NCBI RefSeq assembly: GCF_019633745.1
Contig: NZ_CP037968.1
Span: forward strand, 310,001-374,000
Direction: 5' to 3'
Length of the DNA stretch: 64,000 nucleotides
Source of the DNA: Methanofollis formosanus
Lineage (GTDB): Archaea; Halobacteriota; Methanomicrobia; Methanomicrobiales; Methanofollaceae
The notes beneath the pieces are model-generated. The model saw nothing but the letters and a program-made list of their open reading frames with translations. It searched no databases and was not told the origin of the DNA. Numbering within the stretch: position 1 is the stretch's first letter; every line of letters begins with the position of its first letter. The translations under genes were made by a program, and so were the position numbers. This document shows, piece after piece, positions 15,957 through 56,312 of the stretch.

Positions 15957-16217
15957 ATGATAATCAGCATGGAAGAACTATTGCCCTATAATGAGGAGGA
16001 ACCGGGCATGCGGGTGCAGTATATCTATGATGCAGAGGGACGAAGGACTGGAGTGATTGTACCTATTGATCTCTGGTACTCACTGGGTATTGAAAAATCT
16101 GTAGAAAAAGAGTGCGGGATCAGGGAACCCGAAAAATATCGAGGAATATATCGATCCCTCAAGGTCGATCTGAAAGATGAACTTCGAAAGATGCGGGATG
16201 AATGGGACCGACTATGA
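15957..16217 (+). CDS. Probable antitoxin of a VapBC pair
   Basis: This acidic protein has 86 residues from ATG 15957; an in-frame ATG at 15969 or 16008 is also possible. It has a short beta-rich start (MRVQYIYDAEGRRTGVIVPI) as in Phd/AbrB-like antitoxins, then a charged helical tail (KDELRKMRDEWDRL) that would wrap the toxin. Its stop overlaps the toxin start in ATGA, the usual antitoxin-first arrangement. I do not recognise the exact antitoxin family; the assignment rests mainly on the neighbouring PIN protein. Confidence 0.7.
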   Translation: MIISMEELLPYNEEEPGMRVQYIYDAEGRRTGVIVPIDLWYSLGIEKSVEKECGIREPEKYRGIYRSLKVDLKDELRKMRDEWDRL

Positions 16218-16606
16218 GACGTTTCCTCCTCGATACCAATATTCTCATCTATTATCTTGCAGATGCCATACCATCTGAGAGCCTGGATGAGGTTGACGAT
16301 ATGTTGACCTCCTCGTTTCGCATCTCGATCATCACAAAGATCGAGTTTCTTGGATGGAAAAAGCACACCCCGACAGGCTACGATATGGCTGAAGATTTCA
16401 TCCGATCTGCAGAGGTATACCCTTTGACAGAAAGAATTGCGGACACTTCTATCCATTTGCGCCGAACATATGGGATGAGACTTGCTGATGCCGTTATTGC
16501 GGCCACTGCAGTGGTTCACGACTGTGCACTTGTCACCCGGAACGAGGATGACTTTTCCAGGATATGTACACTTGAGATAGTGAATCCGTTCAACAAAGAA
16601 GAATGA
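16214..16606 (+). CDS. vapC: VapC-type PIN-domain toxin (ribonuclease)
   Basis: The 130-residue PIN protein starts at the ATGA overlap (MRRFLLDTNILIYYLAD). Acidic active-site residues are all present: Asp in LLDTNI, Glu in TKIEFLG, Asp in GMRLADAVIAATA and Asp in LVTRNEDDF. VapC toxins cut tRNA or rRNA when released from the antitoxin. The gene pair stands alone between two ~127-bp direct repeats. Confidence 0.88.
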   Translation: MRRFLLDTNILIYYLADAIPSESLDEVDDMLTSSFRISIITKIEFLGWKKHTPTGYDMAEDFIRSAEVYPLTERIADTSIHLRRTYGMRLADAVIAATAVVHDCALVTRNEDDFSRICTLEIVNPFNKEE

Positions 16607-42288: not shown

Positions 42289-43029
42289 TCAGAGCAATGA
42301 GTCCAGGAGATCATCCTCAATATCTGAAAATTTGTTCTTCATGATGGTCCGGATTCTTTCGACGTACACCCTCTCGATATCATCTGCCGAGTGAATGAAA
42401 TCATTCATGACCTGCGGCCGGTCCACCAGAGAACCTGAATAATCTTTATCGGCATAATGGAAGACCCTGTCCTCGCCGAGAGGGAAGACAAATCTCCGGA
42501 TTGCAATCTTAGGGAGTCCGAACGAGGAGTGACCCGCGATATAATCGACCATCTCATGGATGGTCGCGGGGCTGTGCTCCTGCAAATAGGCGTAGAGGAT
42601 CTCAGACAACTTTTTTCTGACTGCAGGATCGTTCTGATAACGCAAATTCTTTGTTAAAAATCCACAGATCTCACTTCTCTCGTCGCACGCAGACTGATGG
42701 ATCTCATCGAGATCAGAGAAGATCACGCGATGATGACCGGTCCTGGGATCAGGTTCGATCGATTTCACGACGTCTCCCTTCATGGAGGTGATAAAATCTT
42801 TGAACGACCTGAACCCGAGTTGTTTCTCAGAAAAAGACGGTTGCAACCTGACGAGGAGAGGCTTCAACTGTGCCAGCAATATTGGTTCGTCGGAGGGACG
42901 GTTTTTCAGATATCGGATCAGCAGGTCCCTGCCCATCTTTCTGTTCATGTCCATGGCCAGGAACGAGGCCTTTTCGGCCTCACCGTCATCGGCCGGTTCA
43001 TCCTCAAACCCGATCAGCTCTTCAACCAT
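42289..43029 (-). pseudogene. C-terminal part of a LOTUS/OST-HTH protein split by a TnpB element
   Basis: Apparent 246-residue frame. It contains an OST-HTH/LOTUS-like domain: DLLIRYLKNRPSDEPILLAQ, LKPLLVRLQPSFSEKQLGFR, SFKDFIT, followed by a beta hairpin (TGHHRVIF), and a further helical region (residues ~115-246). Such domains bind RNA and usually follow a NYN nuclease domain. The frame continues upstream directly into the left end of the TnpB element, and a gene start reading MPVNRLDEKNVAIYLD lies just past the other end (44369 downward). The ATG at 43029 is thus probably accidental and the original gene is disrupted. Confidence 0.7.
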
Positions 43030-44325
43030 CTCCGCAAGGAGTCCCCGGTCTTCAGGCCGGGGAGGAATTGCGTTTCACACACATATCACTAAATAATATT
43101 GGTTGAAATATATATCTGTGCTCACCACAAAGACGATCATCCTCAAGATGGCCTGTCCTGATACCGATCTCCTTGACCGGACGGTACAGACCTACACTAA
43201 TGGGATGAACTACGTCTCTGCGGTCGTGTACAAACTCGGGAAACCCAGGGGTTCCGCCGCCCTCCAAAAGATCGTCTATCCTACTCTCCGGGAACATCTT
43301 GGTCTCAAGTCCCAGATGTCCTGCAACGTCGTCCGACAGGTCACGGGAACCTACCGGACACTCCAGGCGCAGGTCAAGACGAAAAAGACCGAATGGCAGC
43401 AGATCACGTACGCTCCCACCACAATGACCTTCTCCTTCGGACGGGACTTCTCTCTCGACAGAGACGAGATCGGGCTTACGACCCTCGAAGGCCGAAGAAA
43501 GTATCATTTCCTCCGGTACCCTTACATGGAGCAATATCTCGACGGATCGTGGAAGTTTGGAGCGTCAAAGTTGGTGAAACACCAGGACGGGACGTATTAC
43601 TTCCACCTCTGTTGCGAGAGGGAGTCCAGGACCCGCGAGGTCACGGAGTCTTCGACTTTCATGGGGTTGATGTGGGCCAGAACTTCCTTGCGGTTGCCTC
43701 GACGACCGACAAGAAATGTCGGTTCTTCTGTGGCGGGAAAGCCAAGGATCTCCGAAATATCTATTCTACCATGCGGAAACGGTTGCAGTCGAAGGGCACC
43801 CGGTCGGCAAAGAGGATGCTCAAGCACCTCTCCGGCCGGGAGAGACGGCTTATGACTGATATGAACCACCGTGTCTCGAAGGAGATTGTTGAGTTTGCCG
43901 TTCAGAACAATGTCGATGTGATTGGACTGGAGGATCTTTCCGGGATCAGGGACCGGACAGAAACCTCGAAGAAGCAGAGGTACACTCATCATTCCTGGGC
44001 GTTCTTTGAACTTCAGTCCTTTATCGAGTACAAAGCGGGGGAAAAAGGCATATCGACGGTCTATGTCGATCCGGCCTATACTTCTCAGACCTGTCCTCAA
44101 TGCAACCATATCAGCAAGAACAACAGGCACAGGAAGTCGTTTGTCTGCGAATGTTGCGGACACTCGCTTCATGCCGACCTGATCGGTGCTCGGAACATCG
44201 AGTCCAGAGCACGCACCTACAGGTATACCCTGGAGGTGCAGGGGTGCAGTCAACCACCCAAACGAGAACTATCGACAGGATAGAGTCTCAAGCTCCGTCC
44301 TTCAGGGCGGGGTAGTTGACAGTCC
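43027..44325 (+). mobile_element. IS1341-type (IS200/IS605 family) tnpB-only element
   Basis: Left end: hairpin CCCCGG-TCTTCAGG-CCGGGG at 43043-43062. Right end: CCGTCCTTCAGGGCGGGGTA at ~44295-44314, the signature of the 3' end of TnpB guide (omega/reRNA) scaffolds, then GTTGAC. TTCAAC at 43021-43026 may be the target-adjacent motif. No tnpA is present and no target duplication is expected for this family. Exact ends are uncertain by several bases. Confidence 0.75.
43118..44283 (+). pseudogene. tnpB: TnpB RNA-guided nuclease gene with one frameshift
   Basis: Two plus-strand frames together make a full TnpB of ~388 residues. Catalytic RuvC residues are intact: Asp in GVDVGQNFLAV, Glu in VIGLEDLSGI, Asp in HSLHADLIGARNI. 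The zinc ribbon CPQCNH...CECCGH is intact too. The frame changes at the G-run 43663-43666: four Gs are present, and a fifth would restore ATG-GGG-GTT-GAT. It is inactive as it stands unless the ribosome slips or the assembly missed a base. Confidence 0.85.
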
Positions 44326-44796: not shown

Positions 44797-44973
44797 GGAT
44801 CTGCTTTTTGTGTGGAGCATATCTGCACCAGGGAGATAGGAATCATGCGAGCAGACCATTTCAAAGGCATTAATCCTTTTTTTCGTGGAACCAGCATGCA
44901 ATGAGGTGCTGAGAGGTGAAGACAAAAGTAATACGAGGTGATGCGATCCTTTTTGTGTGGAACCCCCTGCGGC
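44797..44973. CRISPR. Fossil CRISPR repeats (three degenerate units)
   Basis: Three stretches resemble the active repeat: ATCTGCTTTTTGTGTGGAGC at 44799, TTAATCCTTTTTTTCGTGGA at 44871 and GCGATCCTTTTTGTGTGGAA at 44943. Starts are ~71-72 bp apart, exactly one repeat-spacer period. Each keeps the T-run, the GTGGAA/GTGGAG block and a CTGCA-like end. They would be the oldest end of the locus. Confidence 0.6.
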
Positions 44974-45092
44974 TCATCCCCACGGTGAGGGCGAGAGCAA
45001 GCCAGAACTCGCCCCCTGTGGGGAAATCTTACCCGAAGGGCAAGGAGATAGATTGCATATCCATCTCTGTTAGCAGACCAGATATAATTTTT

Positions 45093-45340
45093 GGGCTCTG
45101 TAGAGTCAGGCATGGACCTGAGGCTCAAGCACATGGGATGAAAATTGTTCAGAGAATCCCTATCAATCGCGACAGCGCACCAGGAGAACATTGCTCAAGT
45201 GCCGCCTCCGATCCTCACCGTGGGGGTGCGGGGGGCGGCGAGCCCGCCGGTGGAGGAGTGCGTTGAGCATTTCTGGAAGGAAGCACGTCGGTCCGAGGGG
45301 ATGTTCGCCCCAGGAGAGTTCTGGGATATGCTCATGGAAT
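45093..45340. repeat. Composite element copy inside the CRISPR region
   Basis: Begins GGCTCTGTAGAGTCAGGCAT, continues AAGCACATGGGATGAAAATT, then a GC-rich inverted core (CACCGTGGGGGTGCGGGGGG ~45217) and ends AGTTCTGGGATATGCTCATG. The end is fused directly to a half CRISPR repeat (CATGGAATAATTCTGCAAT, to ~45351). 44974-45092 has no gene. Confidence 0.6.
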
Positions 45341-45389
45341 AATTCTGCAATATTTACCGCTTCGCAAATACCCGAAGTCGATCATGAGA

Positions 45390-45648
45390 GTAACAATCCT
45401 TTTTTTCATGGAATAATTCTGCAACACATGGCAAACCGTAAAGAAATATATCCGCATCCTTGTGTAGCAATCCTTTTTTTCATGGAACAAGTCTGCAACT
45501 ATCATGCAAAGGAGCGTGATACACTAAGCATAGGCAAAGTAGCAATCCTTTTTTTCATGGAACTATTCTGCAGCATCAAGCAGAATAAATTATTGAAGGC
45601 TGGAGAATGGATGTAGCAATCCTTTTTTTCATGGAACAAGTCTGCAAC
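45390..45648 (-). CRISPR. CRISPR array 1 (4 repeats, 3 spacers)
   Basis: 36-nt repeats at 45390-45425, 45464-45499, 45539-45574 and 45613-45648; spacers of 38, 39 and 38 nt. On the minus strand the repeat starts GTTGCAGA and ends GGATTGCTAC. The repeats differ from each other (AATAATTC, AACAAGTC, AACTATTC variants), a sign of age. It shares the repeat of the larger array, so the same Cas6 should process both. A half repeat lies further left at ~45333-45351. Confidence 0.93.
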
Positions 45649-45695
45649 CATATCCAAATGCTCCGAATAAAAATTGGATGTGTTCTGGGGGCCGT

Positions 45696-45929
45696 TCAAT
45701 CGATGACCGTGGGTTGATCTCTCCGCCGGCTGAGCCGATCTTCGTCGATTTCAAGAATACGATCTATCTTCGCCAGGTTCACGAGGAAATGGTGTCCGTC
45801 GGGGAGTTCTAACTCCACAAACCCAAAACATCTCACCACGGTGCCACGGAGAACCCTAATCTCTCCATCGTCAGAATACGTCACCTTAACAGGCTTACCA
45901 ACCTGGTTTTCCAGCAAATCTGTTGCCAT
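45696..45929 (-). CDS. Small Sm-like protein between the CRISPR arrays
   Basis: 77 residues from ATG 45929 with a strong ribosome site (GGAGGT, 7 nt). After a short helix (MATDLLENQ) come five predicted strands, VGKPVKVTYSDDGEIRVLRG, TVVRCFGFVELELPDG and HHFLVNLAKIDRILEID, which is the strand pattern of an Sm/LSm barrel. I cannot confirm Sm motifs by alignment, so the family is an inference. It is transcribed toward array 1, on the cas strand, and lies between two arrays with the same repeat. An RNA-binding role would fit that place. Confidence 0.65.
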   Translation of the reverse strand: MATDLLENQVGKPVKVTYSDDGEIRVLRGTVVRCFGFVELELPDGHHFLVNLAKIDRILEIDEDRLSRRRDQPTVID

Positions 45930-46140
45930 AATCTTTACCTCCAAATCTTATCTGACATCTCTGTCCTGAGAGTGAGAGTCAGGGTATTAAGCCTGTTTAA
46001 CTCACTCTATACTGCCTCGTAGAGGCAGTGAAAGGATATTCTTGCGTGCCGCCAGGATTGATTCTCTCAGTTCTGTGTCCTGAACCCCGTGCCAAAGGAC
46101 AGGACAACCCGGCACCTTTTCGACCAGCCCCCTTTGAGAA
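45930..46140. other. Promoter region of the Sm-like gene and distal end of array 2
   Basis: Contains inverted repeats (CTGCCTCGTAGAGGCAG at 46013-46029; TGTCCT...AGGACA at ~46078-46102). These may be the terminator of the array-2 transcript or part of the Sm-like gene promoter. No other gene is seen. Confidence 0.45.
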
Positions 46141-47076
46141 GTAGCAATCCTTTTTTCATGGAACAAGTCTGCAACTCTGTCGAGAAGACGCTGAAATCTC
46201 GAACTACTACATACCGTAGCAATCCTTTTTTTTCATGGAACAAGTCTGCAACTTTTTTCGGACTTTAGGACGTGAATACAATGGCTAGTAGCAATCCTTT
46301 TTTTCGTGGAACAAGTCTGCAACACGGTACCGGAATCGCACAACGAATTTGCCGCGTCCCTCATTGGATATGGTAGCAATCCTTTTTTTCGTGGAACAAG
46401 TCTGCAACTCGCACGACTCCGGAAACTCTTAGAGAAGACTGAAGCGGAGTAGCAATCCTTTTTTTCGTGGAACAAGTCTGCAACAAATCTTGATGCATTA
46501 TGACGCAAGAGAACCTTTTTGAAGTAGCAATCCTTTTTTTCGTGGAACAAGTCTGCAAATATCTATCTCTCTGAAAAAAGTGATATCATGTCGCAGTAGC
46601 AATCCTTTTTTTCGTGGAACAAGTCTGCAACCCCGTCTTGAAGGTGAATCGCTCGCAGAACTTAGGAAACTGTAGCAATCCTTTTTTTCATGGAACAATT
46701 CTGCAACAAGTATTATGAACTCGCTTTCGATGTGGGCGCAGGGTAGCAATCCTTTTTTTCATGGAACAATTCTGCAACCACTCATAGCACCAGACCAACT
46801 CGGCATCTTCCGGGAACGTAGCAATCCTTTTTTTCATGGAACAATTCTGCAACTATGTCAGCAGAGGCATGAGAACAGCACTCTTTCAGAGTAGCAATCC
46901 TTTTTTTCATGGAACAATTCTGCAACGTATCTCGTTGACATCTATGAACAGTTAGATGAACAGTAGCAATCCTTTTTTTCATGGAACAATTCTGCAACAG
47001 TGCGGATGGAGGAAAGGACGAAAGGTCGCCGACCACCTCGGTAGCAATCCTTTTTTTCATGGAACAATTCTGCAAC
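46141..47076 (-). CRISPR. CRISPR array 2 (13 repeats, 12 spacers)
   Basis: Repeats start at 46141, 46216, 46288, 46373, 46449, 46524, 46596, 46672, 46743, 46818, 46891, 46963 and 47041; spacers are 35-49 nt. Repeat variants form three blocks. The two leftmost have CATGGAACAAGTC and irregular T-runs (35 and 37 nt). The next five have CGTGGAACAAGTC. The six at the right have CATGGAACAATTC and are identical. Homogeneous repeats at the right end put the leader there, with transcription on the minus strand. Open frames here (recurring LFHEKKDCY) are artefacts of the repeat. Confidence 0.97.
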
Positions 47077-47204
47077 AGTATCATATTCTCTCTGAATCCC
47101 CAAATACCTTTCGAAACCCCTCCTTCTCCCCCGCGTATATAAAGCGGGTGAGGATATTGCGGCCCTCGCCTTTCTATACTCACCCGCACCGAGATCAGAG
47201 ACTA
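47077..47204 (-). promoter_or_regulatory. CRISPR leader with TATA box
   Basis: The 128 bp between array 2 and cas2 carry no gene. CTTTATATACG (47134-47144, minus strand) is a good TATA box and would start the pre-crRNA near 47110, about 35 nt before the first repeat. A purine-rich stretch (GGGGGAGAAGGAGGGG) follows the box. Confidence 0.7.
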
Positions 47205-47516
47205 TCATCCTATGATCCTGTAACGTCTCTTCCTGAACCTCTCCTCATCAAAGGGTTTCCCGATCACCACTTTGCGCGAGAGACAACGCTCGCAGAGGGG
47301 GAGGACAAGGACACTATCGGTATCAGTACGTACTTCCCCCTCACGCGGTCTGGTGACCTCGTTCATCGCCTCTGCAATCTGATCAAACCCCGACGAGGAC
47401 ACCTCCCCGAAGAAGACACTCCTCTGGAACCTGACAAGCCCGAAATCCTTGCAAGTCTCGACGACCCTCCTCCTGATACGGGCGTCGGTGAGGTCGTAGA
47501 TCACCCACGCAAACAT
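47205..47516 (-). CDS. cas2: CRISPR-associated protein Cas2
   Basis: 103 residues from ATG 47516, which overlaps the cas1 stop in TGATG; an in-frame GTG lies at 47525. MFAWVIYDLTDARIRRRVVE has the ferredoxin-fold first strand with the conserved Asp of Cas2, then CKDFGLVRFQRSVFFGE. With Cas1 it forms the spacer-integration complex. It is adjacent to the leader, where integration takes place. Confidence 0.93.
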   Translation of the reverse strand: MFAWVIYDLTDARIRRRVVETCKDFGLVRFQRSVFFGEVSSSGFDQIAEAMNEVTRPREGEVRTDTDSVLVLPLCERCLSRKVVIGKPFDEERFRKRRYRIIG

Positions 47517-48514
47517 CAACGCCACCGGTAACGGAAGGGGTGGTAGGGGCGCCCTTCATTCAGGTACCTCACCACATCCCGCATATTCTCAGTGATCGCA
47601 CGGGAGAAGGAAGAAACCCTCCCGCCAAGATCCCGGTCGGCAGTCAGACGGTCAATGACCGTCGCCGCCACCCTGCGGCGAGCATCAGGTGTCAGGTACC
47701 CACGCCCATCAAGATCCGCCGCCCTGATCCGTCTCCTGACCGCCAGCGTGATCACCGCCTGATCGACGACCGGTTGTCTGAACTGCTCGATCACATCGTA
47801 CACAAACGACCGGCGCCCCGCACGATCAGCGTGAAGATACCCAAGAAAAGGATCAAGCCCTGCGATCAGACACGCCCGCTCCACCTCATTGTACAGGATC
47901 CCGTAGCCATAGTTGAGAGAGGCATTGAAGACATCACCGGCAGGCCGGTGCCGGCGGATGCCATGGTAGACCTCTGGACCGATCACCAGACGGAGCGCCG
48001 CGAAGTACCGCCGGGACGCCTCCGCCTCGACCACCCGCATCACCTGTGCCGATTGAGGCAACGACCCCTGACCTGGCATCTTCTCCGCGACTCTCTCGAT
48101 CTTCTTCCCCTCTTCCTTCAACCCCTGATCATTCCGGTTCCTCCCAAGAACCCTGACCAACCCTCCCATATGAGCGATCTTTGCCCTGAGGATCCCCGCG
48201 CAGAACACATACCCCTCGCACCCCATCGACCCAAGGACCTGATTTTTTCTGGTGAGACCTGTCCCGCAAGGCGTGCACGAGACAAACCTGCCCACCGGCA
48301 TCCCGTCCTGCCCAAGCACTGTAATATCGATCCCATGCTCCGCCGCAAGAGCAGCGACCCCCGAGGTAACCGTCGCCGCCCCGGCTATCAGAACCTGCTC
48401 GACCTCGTCAACCGCAAACTCTTCTGTCTCGCCGTCACACTCCACCACGATCCGGTTTGAACACCTCCGCACCACCGTCCCATACCCATTGAGGACAAGA
48501 TGCATCTTTTTCAT
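47516..48514 (-). CDS. cas1: CRISPR-associated integrase Cas1
   Basis: 332 residues from ATG 48514 (an ATG at 48505 with AGGAGG better spaced is also possible). N-terminal beta domain (HLVLNGYGTVVRRCSNRIVV). Catalytic residues are visible in the helical domain: Glu in VVEAEASRRYFAAL, His in FLGYLHADRAGRRSFVYDVI and Asp in the following EQFRQPVVDQAV segment. Complete and probably active. Confidence 0.95.
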   Translation of the reverse strand: MKKMHLVLNGYGTVVRRCSNRIVVECDGETEEFAVDEVEQVLIAGAATVTSGVAALAAEHGIDITVLGQDGMPVGRFVSCTPCGTGLTRKNQVLGSMGCEGYVFCAGILRAKIAHMGGLVRVLGRNRNDQGLKEEGKKIERVAEKMPGQGSLPQSAQVMRVVEAEASRRYFAALRLVIGPEVYHGIRRHRPAGDVFNASLNYGYGILYNEVERACLIAGLDPFLGYLHADRAGRRSFVYDVIEQFRQPVVDQAVITLAVRRRIRAADLDGRGYLTPDARRRVAATVIDRLTADRDLGGRVSSFSRAITENMRDVVRYLNEGRPYHPFRYRWR

Positions 48515-48593
48515 CCCCTCCTCTCCCCCAGGAGACCGCCATAGAACCATCCGTGCACTTTATCCATCCATCTCACCAGAATAATCACCATCA

Positions 48594-49337
48594 ATGAAAA
48601 CCGCAGTCATCGCACCGGTCGGCATGAGCCCTCCGGCAATCAGCACACTCATCGACGGAATAGGAGTCCCAGTCACCGACTGCATCCTCCTCGCCACCAA
48701 AAACCCTGCAGTCCAGGCCTCAGTCGGCCTCCTCACCACCGGCCTGCACCGCCGCTTCCCCTGGATGAGGATCCACCACGAAGTCCTCCCCTTCGAGGAC
48801 ATCGGAACAGAAGAGGAGACCTTCGCCTTCATCACGCAAGCCGCTCGCATCATCAGACAGGAGCAGGAGACCTTCGGATGCGACCACGTCTACCTCTCGA
48901 TCTCAGGCGGACGCAAGAACATGTGCGTCTCCCTCTCCCTCCTCGCCCCCCTTCTCCAGACCGACGGCGTCTTCCATGTCATCAACACCGAGATCAACGT
49001 GGTCAACACCCGCCTCGAACACCTCCGTAAGGATATCGAAGCGTTCGCCACCGCTGACGACGACGAGCGTAACCGCCTCTACGAGGAAAAATCCACCGAA
49101 TACGACCACCTCCTCTTCCCGCCGCGTGACACCTATGAGGTGATCAGGATCCCGACCCTCCCCTACCCCCCCGACCACCTCCACCACCTTATTCTCGGCC
49201 TCACCACCGGTGAAGCACTCACCTCAGACGAACGCGACCTCCTCGCCAGACACGGCATCCTTGAACCAGGCCGCTCGTCAACGGTCCTCACTCCATATGG
49301 GGAACGGTTCCTTGCCGCCTTCCTTGGGCGCCCCTGA
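48594..49337 (+). CDS. NE0113-like CARF protein with C-terminal winged helix
   Basis: 247 residues. The N-terminus (AVIAPVGMSPPAISTLIDG) and the ligand loop YLSISGGRKNMCVSLSLL (Ser104-Gly-Gly-Arg-Lys108) fit CARF proteins of the NE0113 type. The last ~50 residues (LTSDERDLLARHGILEPGRS, STVLTPYGERFL) look like a winged helix. No HEPN or PD-(D/E)XK part is seen. It may be a cOA-responsive regulator or a ring nuclease. It is the only plus-strand gene in the locus, divergent from cas1 (80 bp), and its 3' end overlaps cas6 tail to tail by 60 bp. Confidence 0.8.
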   Translation: MKTAVIAPVGMSPPAISTLIDGIGVPVTDCILLATKNPAVQASVGLLTTGLHRRFPWMRIHHEVLPFEDIGTEEETFAFITQAARIIRQEQETFGCDHVYLSISGGRKNMCVSLSLLAPLLQTDGVFHVINTEINVVNTRLEHLRKDIEAFATADDDERNRLYEEKSTEYDHLLFPPRDTYEVIRIPTLPYPPDHLHHLILGLTTGEALTSDERDLLARHGILEPGRSSTVLTPYGERFLAAFLGRP

Positions 49338-50003
49338 CCCTTTTTTCAGTGGCGGGATCGGCTTCACCGCTCCAAACCCCCGAGAGACCCCCTTCCCCAG
49401 ACCGAAATATTCCGGAATGGCAAAATTTACCCTGAACTCCCCGACAAACCCAGTCATCCCGATCCCCTTGTAGGTGACCGGCACCTGCTCCAGGTGCGTG
49501 GCCGCTCTCAACCTCTGGTCGACGACACACCCAAGGCCCTTTGCCATCGAGAGCACATTGCCGACAAGGATACGGTTGATCAGGTCCTTCTTCTCAGGCC
49601 AGGTCTCCGCCTTCTGGTACCGCTCATAGTTTTTCTCATTCAGCGCCAACCATGGCGTCACAAACCGGTAATGCCACATCCCACGAGTGGGATGGAGGCC
49701 GACCTCCTGCTCATAGGCCACCCGCCTCGTCACCTGATAGGTCTCGTTGCCAAGACTGAGTTCGGCGATCGACCCCCCGATCTCGCGCAACGTCTCCGCC
49801 CCCTCCTCGATCCCGAGGACCGCCGGCGTCCCCTCGACCACCCGATACTGCACGCGAGGATACGTATACAACAGAGCCGGGGCATGATGATGGAGGATCG
49901 GGCGGTCAGGATACATCCCCGCCACATACCCTCTCAGGTGAGTGGCATCTTTTGTCACCGGCCGATCAGTCTCCAGGACCAGATAACAGGTCTTCAGTTT
50001 CAT
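49278..50003 (-). CDS. cas6: CRISPR RNA endonuclease Cas6
   Basis: 241 residues of the RAMP superfamily. The C-terminal Gly-rich loop IPEYFGLGKGVSRGFGAVKP is diagnostic, and GMTGFVGEFRVNF is the strand before it. His residues near the N-terminal half (ILHHHAPALLY, GMWHYRF) are candidates for catalysis. It cuts pre-crRNA in the repeats of both arrays. The stop lies inside the CARF-winged-helix gene of the opposite strand. Confidence 0.9.
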   Translation of the reverse strand: MKLKTCYLVLETDRPVTKDATHLRGYVAGMYPDRPILHHHAPALLYTYPRVQYRVVEGTPAVLGIEEGAETLREIGGSIAELSLGNETYQVTRRVAYEQEVGLHPTRGMWHYRFVTPWLALNEKNYERYQKAETWPEKKDLINRILVGNVLSMAKGLGCVVDQRLRAATHLEQVPVTYKGIGMTGFVGEFRVNFAIPEYFGLGKGVSRGFGAVKPIPPLKKGSGAPKEGGKEPFPIWSEDR

Positions 50004-50005
50004 AG

Positions 50006-50515
50006 TTACTCCAGTGCATCTGCTCCCACCTGCTCGCGAAGGACACGCGTATATGCCGGCGAGAGCCTCTGCTCACGCAGATGTTCAGTCCCCGAGATCC
50101 CGATCCCGTCCACGCCCCGCCTGGCCTCGACAAGAGAGAGAGGGACCTGGTGGAGAGCGGCAACGATCACCGCCGCCGCGGTCATCGACTTGGTCCCTGA
50201 GGTATAATCGATCGCCTTTCTCCCGGCAACCCCCTTCACCGCTGCGTCCATCACCTCGATACAGGCGGCGAGATCGTCGACATCGGGCAGGACCACAGAG
50301 TTGAAAGGAGGGAGCACCTCACCGGTCATCTCCTGATACTCCTCCGCAATCCCCCTCACCGTCGCCGCGCTCTGATCAGACCCAAAGAAGACCACCTCCC
50401 CTGGTCGGTGACAAGCGACGGAATATGCCAGGCCATGAGCAATGGAAGCCCTCCCGGTTCTGGGGTCAGGCCTGCCAGTCCCGACCGTCATGAAGAGCGT
50501 CACCACCGCACCCAC
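50006..50515 (-). CDS. Standalone CARF-domain protein of the type III-A operon
   Basis: 169 residues with GTG start (50515), overlapping csm5; ATG 50491 is an alternative. FMTVGTGRPDPRTGRASIAH binds the first loop, VVFFGSDQSAATVRGI the second, and AIDYTSGTKSMTAAAVIVAA carries the ligand signature Asp-Tyr-Thr-Ser-Gly-Thr-Lys. It resembles the N-terminal sensory half of Csm6/TIGR02710 proteins without the nuclease half. Options are a ring nuclease that destroys cOA, or a sensor subunit acting on another protein. Confidence 0.82.
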   Translation of the reverse strand: MGAVVTLFMTVGTGRPDPRTGRASIAHGLAYSVACHRPGEVVFFGSDQSAATVRGIAEEYQEMTGEVLPPFNSVVLPDVDDLAACIEVMDAAVKGVAGRKAIDYTSGTKSMTAAAVIVAALHQVPLSLVEARRGVDGIGISGTEHLREQRLSPAYTRVLREQVGADALE

Positions 50516-51681
50516 CCCATCGGAGAATGATTGAGGGTAAACTCAAGGGTCTTTGGATATGGCAACTCAAGCCTCCCCCCAGAAAGAGCACGCCTGTACT
50601 TCCCGAGACGCTGCTCCGTGACAATCTCCAGAGCAAGGTCGGGATCCCTCTCCTCAACGAGGTTGAAGAGCGTCTGATAGATCGTGCCGACGCCAAACCC
50701 GATCCTGAACATGTCAGTCTTCTGGTGCTCAGCCTCGATCATCTCAAGCCCCTTCCTGCAATCTGGATCATTCCCGCGTTCTACGAGGGCCCGCTCCTTC
50801 GTGAGCGCGGCATCCACAAACCGCCGCATCGCCTTCTTGATATGAGCAACGACCTTCTCCTCTGCCGCCGCCAGGTCGTCAAGGTCATGGGCCGTGATCC
50901 CGAGCACCCCGAGCCGGTCTGAAAGCCGGTCGAGATCCCGACGACGCAACGCCCCCTGGATCGCCGGCGAAAGCGTAATCTCACACTCATACTCCCCGAT
51001 CACCGTTTCAGCATGAGTGAGAAACGGCTTTCTGGTAAAACCCCTGGTGCCAAGAGACATCGTCTCGATGCCGTCCAGCCGCAGGATCTGTTTGAGCCCC
51101 TTAGAGGCCTGGACTGCATGGGCGTCAGAGACCTGGAGAAACTTGAGAAGATCGTATTTGGGGTCTCGATCAGGTCTCCCATTCCTCCCGCACTTCGTCG
51201 AGAAGATCTGGTTCTCATACCCCTTCCCGATCCGCTCTTTCATCCTCCTGTCGCCAGTGGAGAGATCACGCCTGATGGCCTCGATGAATTCCGGGTCGTT
51301 CCGTGCCACATCCCAGAGCAGAGCCGTCCTGATCGCACCCTTGATACTCGAACCAGGGAGATAGGGTTCGTCAAAACCGGTCTTAATACACTCCCTGACC
51401 TCGCGGATCCCATGGACCGCCACCCCATACCGGTTCCTGAGCCCATACCGAGCGATCCCCTCACGTTCTCCAGGAAGGAGAAAACGGTCGAGATTGAACC
51501 GCTCGCCGTTCAACTCGATCTCCATGAAAAATGCATCTTTCCGCGCCTCAGGGAGGGCCCGGTACATCTGCTCAGACGAGACCCGGTTCACCGTGCCGCC
51601 CACAGCAAAGAACTCGCTGGGGCCGTATCTCTGGCCGGTCCCGATGTGGACCGGCGTCTTCGTCTTCAGTATGAGTTTCAC
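50500..51681 (-). CDS. csm5: Type III-A RAMP protein Csm5
   Basis: 393 residues. MKLILKTKTPVHIGTGQRYG is the classical RAMP start and EPYLPGSSIKGAIRTALLWD the Gly-rich loop with the Csm5/Cmr6-type helix. Csm5 caps the 3' side of the crRNA in the Csm complex. The start overlaps the csm4 stop (ATGA) and the end overlaps the CARF gene. Confidence 0.93.
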   Translation of the reverse strand: MKLILKTKTPVHIGTGQRYGPSEFFAVGGTVNRVSSEQMYRALPEARKDAFFMEIELNGERFNLDRFLLPGEREGIARYGLRNRYGVAVHGIREVRECIKTGFDEPYLPGSSIKGAIRTALLWDVARNDPEFIEAIRRDLSTGDRRMKERIGKGYENQIFSTKCGRNGRPDRDPKYDLLKFLQVSDAHAVQASKGLKQILRLDGIETMSLGTRGFTRKPFLTHAETVIGEYECEITLSPAIQGALRRRDLDRLSDRLGVLGITAHDLDDLAAAEEKVVAHIKKAMRRFVDAALTKERALVERGNDPDCRKGLEMIEAEHQKTDMFRIGFGVGTIYQTLFNLVEERDPDLALEIVTEQRLGKYRRALSGGRLELPYPKTLEFTLNHSPMGWVRW

Positions 51682-52601
51682 TCAGACCACCTGAACGGCA
51701 CCGGGAACGCCATCCCATATTCGACCACCGGTACGTCGTCGCGCACCGCCTCGATAGATCCGTAGAACTCGTCACCGAGATCCTTGAAGACAGACCCCTC
51801 CTTCAGAGTGAGCACCGACTTCTTCACCTTCCCGTCTCCTGACCGTCCCCTCACCGGCACGATCTCATAATACACCTCACCGCCAAACGCGCTGATGTCG
51901 CCGGGAATAAACCTGGAGAGCGTCAGGAGATGGTCCTCCCTCCCGGCAGGCAGGAAGTCCACCTCACCGAAAGAGAGATCAAACGCCCCCATCCCCGCCG
52001 AAATTCTGCCGCCGATCCCTCGGTCGGCAAGGAACCTGAGTGCTGCACCCACCTCTGACTCAAATGCCCTCTTCTTGATGTCAAGAAGGAAATAGATCCC
52101 GGCATTCTCGAAATATCCCCCCTCAGAAGAGAAGAACGCCTCCGAAGAGGAACCCATCCGGTTTATCCGGTTATGAGGACGCTGATACTCATGGATCATG
52201 AAATCCTCATCATCTCCCTCCCAGACCAGCCCGCACCGTTCATTCAGGGAGTCCATCCTGCCGATAACGTCGAGGGCCGAGCACCGCCCGGTTGCCCAGG
52301 CCTTGAAGAGGGATGCATCGATGTAGTGCATACGCCTATAGTCTTTGACCCTGTCCATGACCTCCTCAGGGACCAGGGGAAGAGGGAGGATCGGAGGAGG
52401 CAGGAAATGCCGCGTCCGATCGCCCCTGACATATGGGAACCCTGACGTGAGCAGGAATGGCGGTTCGGTCTCGAAAGCCTCGATCATCTCCCCCACCGGC
52501 CCGCCCAGTTCTGCCATCGCCGAGCAGATCGCACCAAAGATGGTATGCGATGGGATTTCAGCCGGGAAGCCAGACCGTGGCGTCAGATACACCGCACGCA
52601 T
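51678..52601 (-). CDS. csm4: Type III-A RAMP protein Csm4
   Basis: 307 residues from ATG 52601; the longer frame to 52721 lies inside csm3. Begins MRAVYLTPRSGFPAEIPSHT-IFGAICSAM, a Csm4 start. The C-terminal half has GIGGRISAGMGAFDLSFGEV, a RAMP Gly-rich loop. Csm4 binds the 5' handle of crRNA and anchors Cas10. Confidence 0.92.
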   Translation of the reverse strand: MRAVYLTPRSGFPAEIPSHTIFGAICSAMAELGGPVGEMIEAFETEPPFLLTSGFPYVRGDRTRHFLPPPILPLPLVPEEVMDRVKDYRRMHYIDASLFKAWATGRCSALDVIGRMDSLNERCGLVWEGDDEDFMIHEYQRPHNRINRMGSSSEAFFSSEGGYFENAGIYFLLDIKKRAFESEVGAALRFLADRGIGGRISAGMGAFDLSFGEVDFLPAGREDHLLTLSRFIPGDISAFGGEVYYEIVPVRGRSGDGKVKKSVLTLKEGSVFKDLGDEFYGSIEAVRDDVPVVEYGMAFPVPFRWSE

Positions 52602-52614
52602 ATCGCCCGCTCCC

Positions 52615-53370
52615 TCATGTCCTCTTCTCTCTGAGAGCCCTGAGGATGGCGCGAGGAGTCGTCGCCTCAACAAACCGGTCGTCGGGCGTCCAGTCGTCCC
52701 CTGACCGATAGGACCCGGCATTCTTCCATCCTACAGAGATCTTCTCGAACGCCACCTTCCCATATCCACGCGACCCCGCCTTGCCAAGATAGGTGTCCTC
52801 GACGAGGGAGAGCGCCTCAAAAAGATATGCAAGCCGTGCCTCGTCCTCCTCGCTATAGACCGAGAAGACCATCTCAAAATCAAAGGCCGACCCGGCAGGA
52901 ACCCGCTCGATGAACCTGGGTTTTGCCACCGAGTTGATCCGGTTCAGATAATTTTCACCCTTGATCTCAGTCCCATGAACGATCCCCTCTCTCTCTTCCC
53001 ACTGTGTCTGAGTCTCTCTGTCTGGGAAGGCGTCCCTGATGATCAGCCTCGTCGGCCCGGACTCTCTGCCGTCTCGCGGATTGTCCTTTGCCCCCCGGCC
53101 AAAGACGATACAGAGGTCGCAGTCGTCTTCATCACAGGTATGTGGGCTCCCGTCTCTCGTGAGCCACTGGTCGCTGTACTTCAACTCAAGGGAGGACCGC
53201 ATCTTCCCCTTCAGTGAGGACCCAGGGACAATCGGGACATTCCTGATCCGGTCGAGGATCACCGGCTGATCAGCCCCGCCGATCCCGAGGCTGTCACTAC
53301 TCCCTCCGATGTGCAGGCCGGTCAGACACGAAATTTTTCCAGAGATCTGATAATTTTTCAGGAACTGCAT
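52615..53370 (-). CDS. csm3: Type III-A backbone RAMP nuclease Csm3
   Basis: 251 residues. GLHIGGSSDSLGIGGADQPV places Asp34 at the target-RNA cleavage position. VPIVPGSSLKGKMRSSLE is the conserved loop. A CDEDDCDLC cluster (residues ~79-87) fits the zinc site of Csm3. Expected to cut target RNA at 6-nt intervals. It starts one base after the csm2 frame ends. Confidence 0.95.
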   Translation of the reverse strand: MQFLKNYQISGKISCLTGLHIGGSSDSLGIGGADQPVILDRIRNVPIVPGSSLKGKMRSSLELKYSDQWLTRDGSPHTCDEDDCDLCIVFGRGAKDNPRDGRESGPTRLIIRDAFPDRETQTQWEEREGIVHGTEIKGENYLNRINSVAKPRFIERVPAGSAFDFEMVFSVYSEEDEARLAYLFEALSLVEDTYLGKAGSRGYGKVAFEKISVGWKNAGSYRSGDDWTPDDRFVEATTPRAILRALREKRT

Positions 53371-53880
53371 TCACGCTCTCTCCTTGTGGTAGTATTTATG
53401 ATAGGCAACAATCGATTCAAGCAGGTAGACAAAGGTCTTGTAGTTGGCTTTTTTCTGTACGTCATCCCCGACCGGCACCTTCTGCATCGCAACAGTGACC
53501 AGGGTATAGAAGTCCTGGGGGATCAGATCGCGGCCCTTTGCATAGGCAAGCAACGGCCTGATCATGTAAAATTCGGCCTCAACGTCTGGCCACGCCCTGT
53601 CGGTAAGAGTATTCTCGATCTTTTTGACGACGCCAAATAACCGCCTGAGCTGACTTGGTTTGAGTGAGCCGAAGTCCTTTGCGGCTCTCTCAGCAATACC
53701 GTCCTCTCTGGCGATCTCGTCGACGGTGATCTCGTTCAGGGAGGTGACCCCCTGAATTTTTTTGATATATTCTTTCTCTCCTCGTGGGGCGTCTCTTCTC
53801 CCAGGACCTCCATAGGAAGAGCGGCCGCCTGTACGTTCTGTCGAATTATTCCTTCCCTGATTGTTGTTGTAATATCCCAT
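53371..53880 (-). CDS. csm2: Type III-A small subunit Csm2
   Basis: 169 residues from ATG 53880. A disordered Asn/Gly/Arg-rich head (YYNNNQGRNNSTERTGGRSS) precedes the helical Csm2 core (SLKPSQLRRLFGVVKKIENT ... FYMIRPLLAYAKGRDL ... FVYLLESIVAYHKYYHKE). The arginine-rich head is longer than usual and could bind RNA. The gene fits tightly between cas10 and csm3. Confidence 0.9.
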   Translation of the reverse strand: MGYYNNNQGRNNSTERTGGRSSYGGPGRRDAPRGEKEYIKKIQGVTSLNEITVDEIAREDGIAERAAKDFGSLKPSQLRRLFGVVKKIENTLTDRAWPDVEAEFYMIRPLLAYAKGRDLIPQDFYTLVTVAMQKVPVGDDVQKKANYKTFVYLLESIVAYHKYYHKERA

Positions 53881-53882
53881 CT

Positions 53883-56312
53883 TTACACACCCCTTGTCCG
53901 CAGAATTGTCCAGAGGAGAGGGAGCCGTGCCCATCCGAAGATCGGGACGATCGCTCTCTCCACCTCATCTCGCGTACGTGGTTTTCCATTTGTTCTGACG
54001 TTTCCCGCCACCTGATACTTCAGGTACGGCAGGTATCGCTTCCGGCGTATCCGTTCAAGACACTGTTTGTCCAGGGGCCTCTCACCAAGATCTGCAAAGG
54101 TGTCCTCCCAGAGGTCGTTGAGGGTATGGACAAATGATCGTGAGACGATCTGCTCATCCACATAGGTCTCAAGTGCCAGTCCAGAGTCCATCAACGTCGA
54201 GAACCCTTTCTCATAGCCGTTGTCCTCCCACCTGAGCGATTCCCCAAAGATTACGACCCGGTTCCGTCCGTCTTTCTTTGCCCGCTGCAGAGATCTCTCT
54301 GCCTCTTCGACTGCGATCGACACCGGCAACTGCGGCGGGACGACAGCGATCCCGGCTGAGAGGGTGATCGCCGGGTTGGCACAGACATAACAGGTAAATT
54401 CGTCATGAAAACGCTGCGCAAACCTGAGGATATGGTCCCATGGGCCAAGAACAAGCAGGTCGTCGCCGCCCGAGTAGATCACGTAGAGACTCGGGACAAA
54501 GTGTTTCTTGCATTCAGGGCAGGGTTCGGCCTCAGAGTCGATCCAGGTATAGAAGACCGCAGGATCTCCTGGACGATCGCTGTCCGGTACTTCGATCTTC
54601 TGCGCGTGCTCCCTGCATTCCGGGCAGAGTCTCCGGTATACCCCGAACTCCTGGCAGAGCGTGGTGAGATATCCGGCAAAGAAGTACTGGAACCGGGTGC
54701 TGAGGGTGTAGATCCGTGAGATGCTCCGGTCATCTTTGGGAAGGCCAGCCGCCATGATCCGACCAAGCCTGTCCACATCGGCCTTGAACACCCCGATCTT
54801 TCTGTCGCCGGTGGCAAGATAGGCAAGGTCACTGAGAGTCAGGATCCGGGTGCCGCTGAGGGGGACGGTGTTGCCAAGGTACATAAATCCTGTCTCTTCC
54901 ACCCCGTCGATCAGGAACTCTGTGGAGTTGATCGTGATCACCGCCTCGCCAGGGCTGCAGTCCGGCCCCTCGGTGAGGTCGTAGGTGGTGGAGAGGCCGA
55001 ATTCATCGAATGCAAACCTGAGCCCTGTCCCTCTGAGAAGATATCGAGCCCTTGCGATGGCTGCTCCAAGAGCTTCGTGCGTCCTGCACTCGGCACAGGT
55101 GCCGTTAGGTGTCAAGGGCAGACCGCAGACCGGACAGAGGTCTGCGATCTCGTACACTCTGCCATGTGCCCTGAAGAGAGGATCACAGTCGATGAACTTC
55201 TGGAACTTCTTTCTGCCGACAATGGCGTTGAGATGATCGAGAAGTGACGGAAAATCTTTCATCTCCTCGCGCGAGCAGGGCAGAGATCCCACCACAAGCG
55301 AGAGGCTTCCCCCATTCTTCTGCAGGAGCGTCGTATTGATCTTCCTGGTGATCTGGCCGACTGCGTCATGCACTCTGCTGGTGTTTGGGAGGAGGAGCAG
55401 GAAGTTCCCGCCGGTGTTCCAGAGGATGTTGGCCTCGGTGGCATCAGCGGCCTCCACCATCTCCCTGGCCGTAGCGTCTGCAAGGAGGTTGAGCCAGAAT
55501 GACCGACCTCTGAGGCGTTTTGCCATCCCTTTCCGTGCGTCCTGAGGAGTGGCCACGCCAAAGATGAACGACTGGATCCCTGAGAGTCGACCCTGTACAA
55601 GGAGAAATGGAGAGGCCTTCTCCCTGAAATGGAGGCAGACTGCCAGGGCGGCGGTCGTCTTTGCATGGTCGTAAAGCGAAATGTCAGGGACGTTTACATA
55701 GGTCGCTGAAGGGATGAGGCTGGTGTACTTCCTGAGGAGGGCAAGGGCCGTCCCAAAGGTCGGCGGGTGACCTGCGGTCTCAAACTCTCTGACAAAGTGA
55801 TCCCAGAGATTTCTGTAGGGATTCCCCTCCTTGTATGATGTGGCATGGCTCTCTCTCGTCGGGAATGTGTCTTCCCGTTCAAGGGTGAGAGGTCTCAGGA
55901 GATGGTTCCACTGATACAGACTCTCCGAATGGTCGTGCATCCCGCTGAGTTGGACAGAGGGGAATACACTGATGAGAGGGTCATGTCTCGGGTCTCCTTT
56001 CCCTTCGCGGGGTTTGCGGTCCACTGCCGACGAGAGGTGATCTGCGTCCCGGATGATACGGGAGGAGGCGTGATACCGGGCCCTCTCCGGGAGATGGTGG
56101 TGAAGGACGAGATCTTCCACGACCGGGTCGTTCACATACGCTCTGACAAAGTCTGCACTCCATTTTGCATGGGCACCGTTTCTGCCAAAGTCCTCCTTTG
56201 AAAGCACGTTATATTGGCTGTCAGGCCGCACCCCGGCACGGTAGGAAAATTTCCCGATGTCGTGCAGGAGAGCTGCAAGAGCGATTTGGTCAACGTTGCA
56301 CTCTGTATTCAT
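53883..56312 (-). CDS. cas10: Cas10/Csm1, cyclic-oligoadenylate synthase and HD nuclease
   Basis: 809 residues. HD motif ALLHDIGKF (His17-Asp18) with a later NGAHAKWSADF helix forms the ssDNA nuclease. A zinc ribbon CPVCGLPLTPNGTCAEC lies near residue 390. The palm 2 active site YSGGDDLLVL has Gly615-Gly-Asp-Asp618, intact, so ATP should be turned into cyclic oligoadenylates when target RNA is bound. C-terminal helical D4 domain. It is the first gene of the minus-strand csm operon. Confidence 0.96.
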   Translation of the reverse strand: MNTECNVDQIALAALLHDIGKFSYRAGVRPDSQYNVLSKEDFGRNGAHAKWSADFVRAYVNDPVVEDLVLHHHLPERARYHASSRIIRDADHLSSAVDRKPREGKGDPRHDPLISVFPSVQLSGMHDHSESLYQWNHLLRPLTLEREDTFPTRESHATSYKEGNPYRNLWDHFVREFETAGHPPTFGTALALLRKYTSLIPSATYVNVPDISLYDHAKTTAALAVCLHFREKASPFLLVQGRLSGIQSFIFGVATPQDARKGMAKRLRGRSFWLNLLADATAREMVEAADATEANILWNTGGNFLLLLPNTSRVHDAVGQITRKINTTLLQKNGGSLSLVVGSLPCSREEMKDFPSLLDHLNAIVGRKKFQKFIDCDPLFRAHGRVYEIADLCPVCGLPLTPNGTCAECRTHEALGAAIARARYLLRGTGLRFAFDEFGLSTTYDLTEGPDCSPGEAVITINSTEFLIDGVEETGFMYLGNTVPLSGTRILTLSDLAYLATGDRKIGVFKADVDRLGRIMAAGLPKDDRSISRIYTLSTRFQYFFAGYLTTLCQEFGVYRRLCPECREHAQKIEVPDSDRPGDPAVFYTWIDSEAEPCPECKKHFVPSLYVIYSGGDDLLVLGPWDHILRFAQRFHDEFTCYVCANPAITLSAGIAVVPPQLPVSIAVEEAERSLQRAKKDGRNRVVIFGESLRWEDNGYEKGFSTLMDSGLALETYVDEQIVSRSFVHTLNDLWEDTFADLGERPLDKQCLERIRRKRYLPYLKYQVAGNVRTNGKPRTRDEVERAIVPIFGWARLPLLWTILRTRGV

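Follow-up and report, generated by a model that had tools for sequence, protein, structure and literature searches.

Many type III CRISPR loci carry an active cyclase and no recognizable effector, and the question is whether hidden effectors, regulatory signaling, or disarmament accounts for this. Cyclase-positive, nuclease-deficient type III loci without a known effector have been counted at 133 (PMC11229360), and 31 loci have been found to carry a ring nuclease but no effector (PMC12409355). Csm6, an effector of type III systems, can itself degrade the signal: HEPN-dead TTHB144 degrades cyclic tetra-adenylate (cA4) as fast as the wild type, with K94 of its CARF domain being essential (PMC6599890), and TtCsm6 is a self-limiting ring nuclease that depends on K137 (PMC10897365). 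In this study, we analyzed a type III-A locus of Methanofollis formosanus in a window of 64,000 nucleotides (the whole stretch of DNA examined, C1:310001-374000) of a genome that consists of a single contig of 2.97 Mb and is 99% complete. On balance, we favor the interpretation that this locus is complete and that its Csm6 has lost the 6H and HEPN half through an internal deletion, which left a stand-alone CARF protein of 169 aa (the solo CARF, 50006-50515) and a disarmed cyclic oligoadenylate (cOA) branch.

The solo CARF was matched best in PADLOC by the CARF1--CARF_HEPN model (3e-30), with residues 6-161 corresponding to positions 4-146 of the 388 in the model, whereas its match to the stand-alone model CARF1--CARF (PDLC01794) was weak (1e-6, residues 44-126), and a Pfam search of the protein gave no match. 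For comparison, we used genomes of the same order, which are labeled G013, G015, and so on. A search of all 232 of these genomes with the 169-aa protein found 15 others, and the matching open frame spans 415-447 aa in all 15. The two nearest, G013 and G015, have the same gene order as the window, cas10-csm2-csm3-csm4-csm5-[Csm6]-cas6 with a convergent csx14, and between csm5 and cas6 they encode a protein of 403 and 401 aa, respectively, compared with 169 aa in the window. The full-length protein of G015 contains the Csm6_6H and Csm6 HEPN domains; the window protein aligns with the CARF portion only and ends where the 6H domain starts. It retains all the columns that are invariant in the alignment with the relatives, including FMTVGTG and IDYTSGTK, so that a CARF domain with conserved pocket motifs is present and the HEPN RNase domain (R-x4-6-H) is absent. 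Judged from these alignments, the effector gene was not lost without trace, and the small CARF gene is its sensor half.

In G015, csm6 ends with AAA CTA TGA, within which the ATG of cas6 lies; the corresponding bases of the window are TAA CTA TGA, placed alike relative to cas6 and in the CARF frame, so that its end TAACTATGA matches the relative's AAACTATGA. Because the window 3′ end resembles the terminus of G015 csm6 in frame, it suggests an in-frame internal deletion that retained the last codons of csm6, although a match of six to nine bases supports this only modestly. Elsewhere in the window, no HEPN half of csm6 was found, and a genome search with that of the closest relative as the query was also negative (best E 0.1). 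The initial annotation had reported that no csm6 or csx1 gene is adjacent to the operon, which holds for a complete gene, but 50006-50515 is csm6 itself, cut to its CARF half.

Branch lengths on a fixed tree (substitutions per site) were used to examine whether the remaining gene is retained or decaying. For the CARF, the branch leading to the window measures 1.21 and the sisters have 0.44, which gives a ratio of 2.79 (bootstrap 5-95%, 1.50-5.27), and the same ratio lies between 0.50 and 1.03 for cas10, csm3, csm4, csm5, and cas6. Tajima tests were nominally significant for the CARF only (p 0.016-0.038; 16 tests, uncorrected), with no significance for seven other genes including csx14. This acceleration fits a release from coupling to the HEPN domain. 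As evolution that sped up after the loss of HEPN, it also speaks for the alternative that the solo CARF is a functionless, decaying remnant of Csm6 and that cOA signaling is being lost, which we consider rather unlikely. Decay of csm6 has occurred independently in G282 (L063, C33, 9500-14114), where an internal out-of-frame deletion left a HEPN stub still encoding RNNSILAHG; unlike that gene, the window gene has an open frame with no frameshift, stop, or HEPN remnant, and its GC content at third codon positions (0.71) equals that of the neighboring genes. Among 57 columns conserved in six relatives, the motif columns were kept in 27 of 29 cases and the other columns in 16 of 28 (p 0.002), which means that the changes spare the pocket motifs. 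In neutral simulations, a stop was acquired in 96% of the runs at the full excess divergence and in 56% at the smallest excess tested. Moreover, cas10, csm2-5, cas6, and csx14 show no damage and no abnormal rate of evolution, which also argues against a system being lost. Because the motif columns are kept, the frame is open, a neutral gene mostly gains a stop, and the decay in G282 looks different, the solo CARF is probably a retained protein. Overall, the sequence comparison shows loss of the effector half at a domain boundary, with the frame and the pocket motifs retained despite faster evolution. As a separate observation on G282, cas10-csm4 were not found next to csm5, and a reverse-transcriptase gene lies upstream of csm5, at the expected position of csm4 and cas10.

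The remaining operon genes are those of a III-A system, as Csm1/Cas10, Csm2, Csm3, Csm4, and Csm5 all exceed their NCBIfam cut-offs. In agreement with the initial annotation, Cas10 has intact HD and cyclase motifs, HD from residue 17 (LLHDIGKF) and SGGDD from residue 614; both motifs are likewise present in nine related loci, as would be expected of a cOA-competent Cas10. No second Cas10 of this kind was detected in the genome. The genes are ordered cas2, cas1, csx14 with a helix-turn-helix domain (csx14-HTH, on the plus strand), cas6b, solo CARF, csm5, csm4, csm3, csm2, and cas10, and two CRISPR arrays lie beyond cas2. The features are as follows.

53883..56312, minus strand: cas10/csm1, 809 aa, with HD (H17D18) and cyclase GGDD (615-618) intact; TIGR02578, E 7e-157
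53371..53934, minus strand: csm2; PF03750, 3.6e-21
52615..53370, minus strand: csm3; TIGR02582, 1.4e-64
51678..52721, minus strand: csm4; TIGR01903, 3e-53; open reading frame as listed, with homology from about 40 codons in
50500..51681, minus strand: csm5; TIGR01899, 4.6e-26; its 3′ end shares 16 nt with the start of the solo CARF
50006..50515, minus strand: solo CARF, 169 aa, a Csm6-type gene reduced to its CARF half, 6H and HEPN being absent; T13 in VGTG and K109 in YTSGTK kept
50000..50008, minus strand: putative deletion junction, TAA CTATGA; 8 of 9 bases equal the AAACTATGA end of full-length csm6 of G015; overlaps the cas6 start
49278..50003, minus strand: cas6b; PF17262, 1.2e-41; its 3′ end overlaps the convergent csx14-HTH by 60 nt
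48594..49337, plus strand: csx14 (CARF5, Crn1-like) with a C-terminal HTH; motifs GMSPP and GGRKNM
47516..48550, minus strand: cas1; PF01867, 3.8e-60; divergent from csx14, with 43 bp between the starts
47205..47525, minus strand: cas2; PF09827, 1.3e-16
45388..47087, no strand assigned: two CRISPR arrays (4 and 13 copies) whose repeats belong to one family

Outside this region, the genome search found no other copy of the array repeat. The CRISPR repeats at 44865-47087 fall into two sub-types, ATGGAACAAT and CGTGGAACAAG, in separate blocks, and one degenerate copy at 44865 is distant from the arrays. Next to this region (42289-44283), an OST-HTH/LOTUS protein (246 aa, minus strand) is encoded directly beside a TnpB-like IS605 gene (43393-44283), and the IS605 insertion may have cut off the N-terminal part of the LOTUS gene.

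In the seven complete orthologous loci (G013, G015, G056, G118, G121, G154, and G208), a CARF-HEPN gene is always present, no more than about 5 kb from the cas operon. An effector would therefore be expected in the window as well, which is the sole complete orthologous locus without one nearby. Csm6 lies inside the operon in G013 and G015, and a CARF2-HEPN Csx1 directly follows csx14-HTH in G056, G118, G121, G154, and G208. Independently of the window, this amounts to a swap of effectors in a single III-A clade, with CARF2-HEPN Csx1 in five genomes and CARF1-HEPN Csm6 in two, the other operon genes being orthologous. It is also observed that a response-regulator (REC) domain protein adjoins cas6 in G118 (L061 9595-10224) and may resemble the membrane effector Cam2.

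It had been proposed in the initial annotation that the effector might be encoded elsewhere, in which case an effector in trans would read the cOA and the solo CARF would merely tune it. When a genome carries several type III loci, loci lacking an effector are more common (PMC11229360), and a different contig of G208 encodes an additional CARF1-HEPN protein. However, the genome of M. formosanus has one Cas10 and one array family, and the genome-wide search for a complete Csm6/Csx1 or a Card1/Can protein was negative. PF09002 (the Card1/Can nuclease domain), CARF2-HEPN Csx1 (PDLC01824), PF09670 (the Csm6 HEPN domain), and PF18145 (SAVED) gave no match, and TIGR02710 matched nothing but the solo CARF and, below threshold, one fragment; the search comprised these five family profiles plus the nearest relative's HEPN half, and NucC, TIR, the deaminase (CARF-ADA), RelE (CARF-RelE), and membrane types, Cam1-3, and Csx23 lay outside it. 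The TIGR02710 fragment (C1:1096027) was rejected as an effector: it has an internal stop and an E value of 0.02, and no csm6 or cas query gave a tblastn match at this site. We therefore regard an effector in trans as improbable. The only PIN gene found in the window (16202-16606, PF01850, 134 aa) overlaps an upstream gene for an 86-aa partner, the pair lying at 15957-16606 on the plus strand. This pair had been named as a candidate effector and was discarded, as the partner has no CARF match and the two resemble a VapBC pair. A CARF scan of viral contigs found none, phage records gave no match, and plasmid records contained one distant TIGR02710 protein.

As for the biochemistry of the solo CARF, two of the residues expected of a ring nuclease, T13 and the motif II lysine K109, are present, and K109 aligns via G013 with K137 of TtCsm6. 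Because the CARF domains of TTHB144 and TtCsm6 act as ring nucleases, this natural CARF half could, by analogy, bind and slowly cleave cOA. Motif I has been held to distinguish degrading from non-degrading CARFs (PMC10018336); in TtCsm6, the single changes T59A and S60A had no significant effect.

The other CARF protein, encoded at 48594-49337, had been described as a CARF protein without a nuclease domain. Profile searches found no nuclease domain in it or in the solo CARF, and they refine the assignment from an anonymous CARF to a CARF5 protein (PADLOC CARF5--CARF, 4.5e-84) of the Csx14 family (TIGR03642, 102.4 bits versus a cut-off of 90.35), which is related to the ring nuclease Crn1. Csx14 has been treated as a member of the Crn1 family (PMC12409355), although the match to the Crn1 equivalog NF040581 reached only 26 bits versus a cut-off of 125. 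The motifs I (G-T-S) and II (G-R-K) of Crn1 (PMC10018336) have counterparts in G10-M11-S12 and G106-R107-K108, Thr10 being dispensable in Sso2081, and nearly all of 15 homologues share G-x-S-P and GGRK. The structure prediction called for in the initial annotation gave a model, only partly confident (60), whose best fold matches among solved structures, like the best sequence matches, are to two ring nucleases, Sis0455 and Sso2081. At the C terminus is a CARF-associated HTH, for which PF24744 is below its cut-off here and above it in the homologues of G015 and G154.

This HTH raises the alternative that the output is transcriptional, with Csx14-HTH as a cOA-responsive regulator of cas1-cas2 and the solo CARF setting its threshold. 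The csx14-HTH gene is divergent from cas1 in the window (intergenic 48551-48593), G118, G115, and G121, which makes a shared promoter possible, and the CARF-HTH protein Csa3, such a regulator in Sulfolobus, is described as binding cOA and regulating adaptation (PMC8844856, PMC7480081). On the other hand, the csx14-cas1 intergenic stretches share no operator or palindrome, the layout differs in G013, G015, G056, G154, and G208, and the Crn1-type catalytic motifs favor a ring nuclease. We hold this alternative only tentatively; it is compatible with the loss of the Csm6 effector half, and it is possible that Csx14-HTH both degrades cOA and regulates. With the Crn1 motifs and HTH of Csx14 and the kept pocket motifs of the solo CARF, the second possibility in the initial annotation, that the CARF proteins regulate and degrade cOA, is the better supported of its two readings.

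Under the interpretation that Csm6 lost its effector half, Cas10 would still make cOA on finding a target RNA, but the cOA would no longer set off collateral RNA decay. The solo CARF would bind cOA and slowly cleave it, as a ring nuclease or a sponge, like the CARF half of full Csm6; Csx14-HTH would degrade cOA through its Crn1-type site, relay it as a transcriptional regulator, or both; and interference would rest on the Cas10 HD DNase and target-RNA cleavage by Csm3. It is conceivable, if doubtful, that the RNase-stripped Csm6 has become a dedicated cOA-binding or cOA-cleaving off-switch together with Csx14-HTH, that cOA is purely regulatory (for example, for cas1-cas2), and that interference is left to Cas10-HD and Csm3.

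Several points, besides the effector types outside the profile search, weigh against this interpretation. In motif I, the solo CARF has G-T-G, compared with G-T-S/T in proven ring nucleases, the second hydroxyl residue (Ser/Thr) being Gly, and because of this the protein may be a sponge that binds cOA without cleaving it. Its single-sequence structure model had a predicted local distance difference test score (pLDDT) of 37.6 and was not used for a fold search. The tree node that joins it to G013 and G015 has 41% support, and because of this weak support the placement leans on synteny. Finally, the solo form is known from one genome only, which allows no estimate of the ratio of nonsynonymous to synonymous substitution rates (dN/dS). 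Nevertheless, the state before the loss (full Csm6 in two syntenic relatives) and the state after it (a constrained sensor only) are both visible, which makes the proposal testable with few proteins and hints at how stand-alone ring nucleases could originate, namely from effectors that lose their nuclease half.

Compared with the described systems, the solo CARF is closest to Csm6 of the CARF1 family (TIGR02710 or CARF1--CARF_HEPN; G013, G015, and distantly TtCsm6 and TTHB144). It shares with them the operon slot, the motifs FMTVGTG, AHGL, FFGS, and IDYTSGTK, and 41-42% CARF identity, but lacks 6H and HEPN and evolves faster. Stand-alone CARF1 proteins (CARF1--CARF), which have already been catalogued, are similar in having a single CARF of about 168 aa; because the match to them is far weaker than that to CARF_HEPN, the solo CARF looks, by sequence, like a more recent amputation that is independent of these proteins. 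The 48594-49337 protein resembles Csx14/Crn1 (Sso2081, Sis0455) in its G-x-S-P and GGRK-M motifs, fold matches, and above-cut-off TIGR03642 score, and differs from them in its additional C-terminal HTH and low Crn1 equivalog score. With its GGDD Cas10, a ring-nuclease candidate, and no effector, the locus fits the known pattern of effector loss at cyclase-positive loci (PMC11229360, PMC12409355). It differs from those loci in that one can say which effector was lost, with the sensor half still intact, and, unlike in the 133 loci, Cas10 keeps its HD domain.

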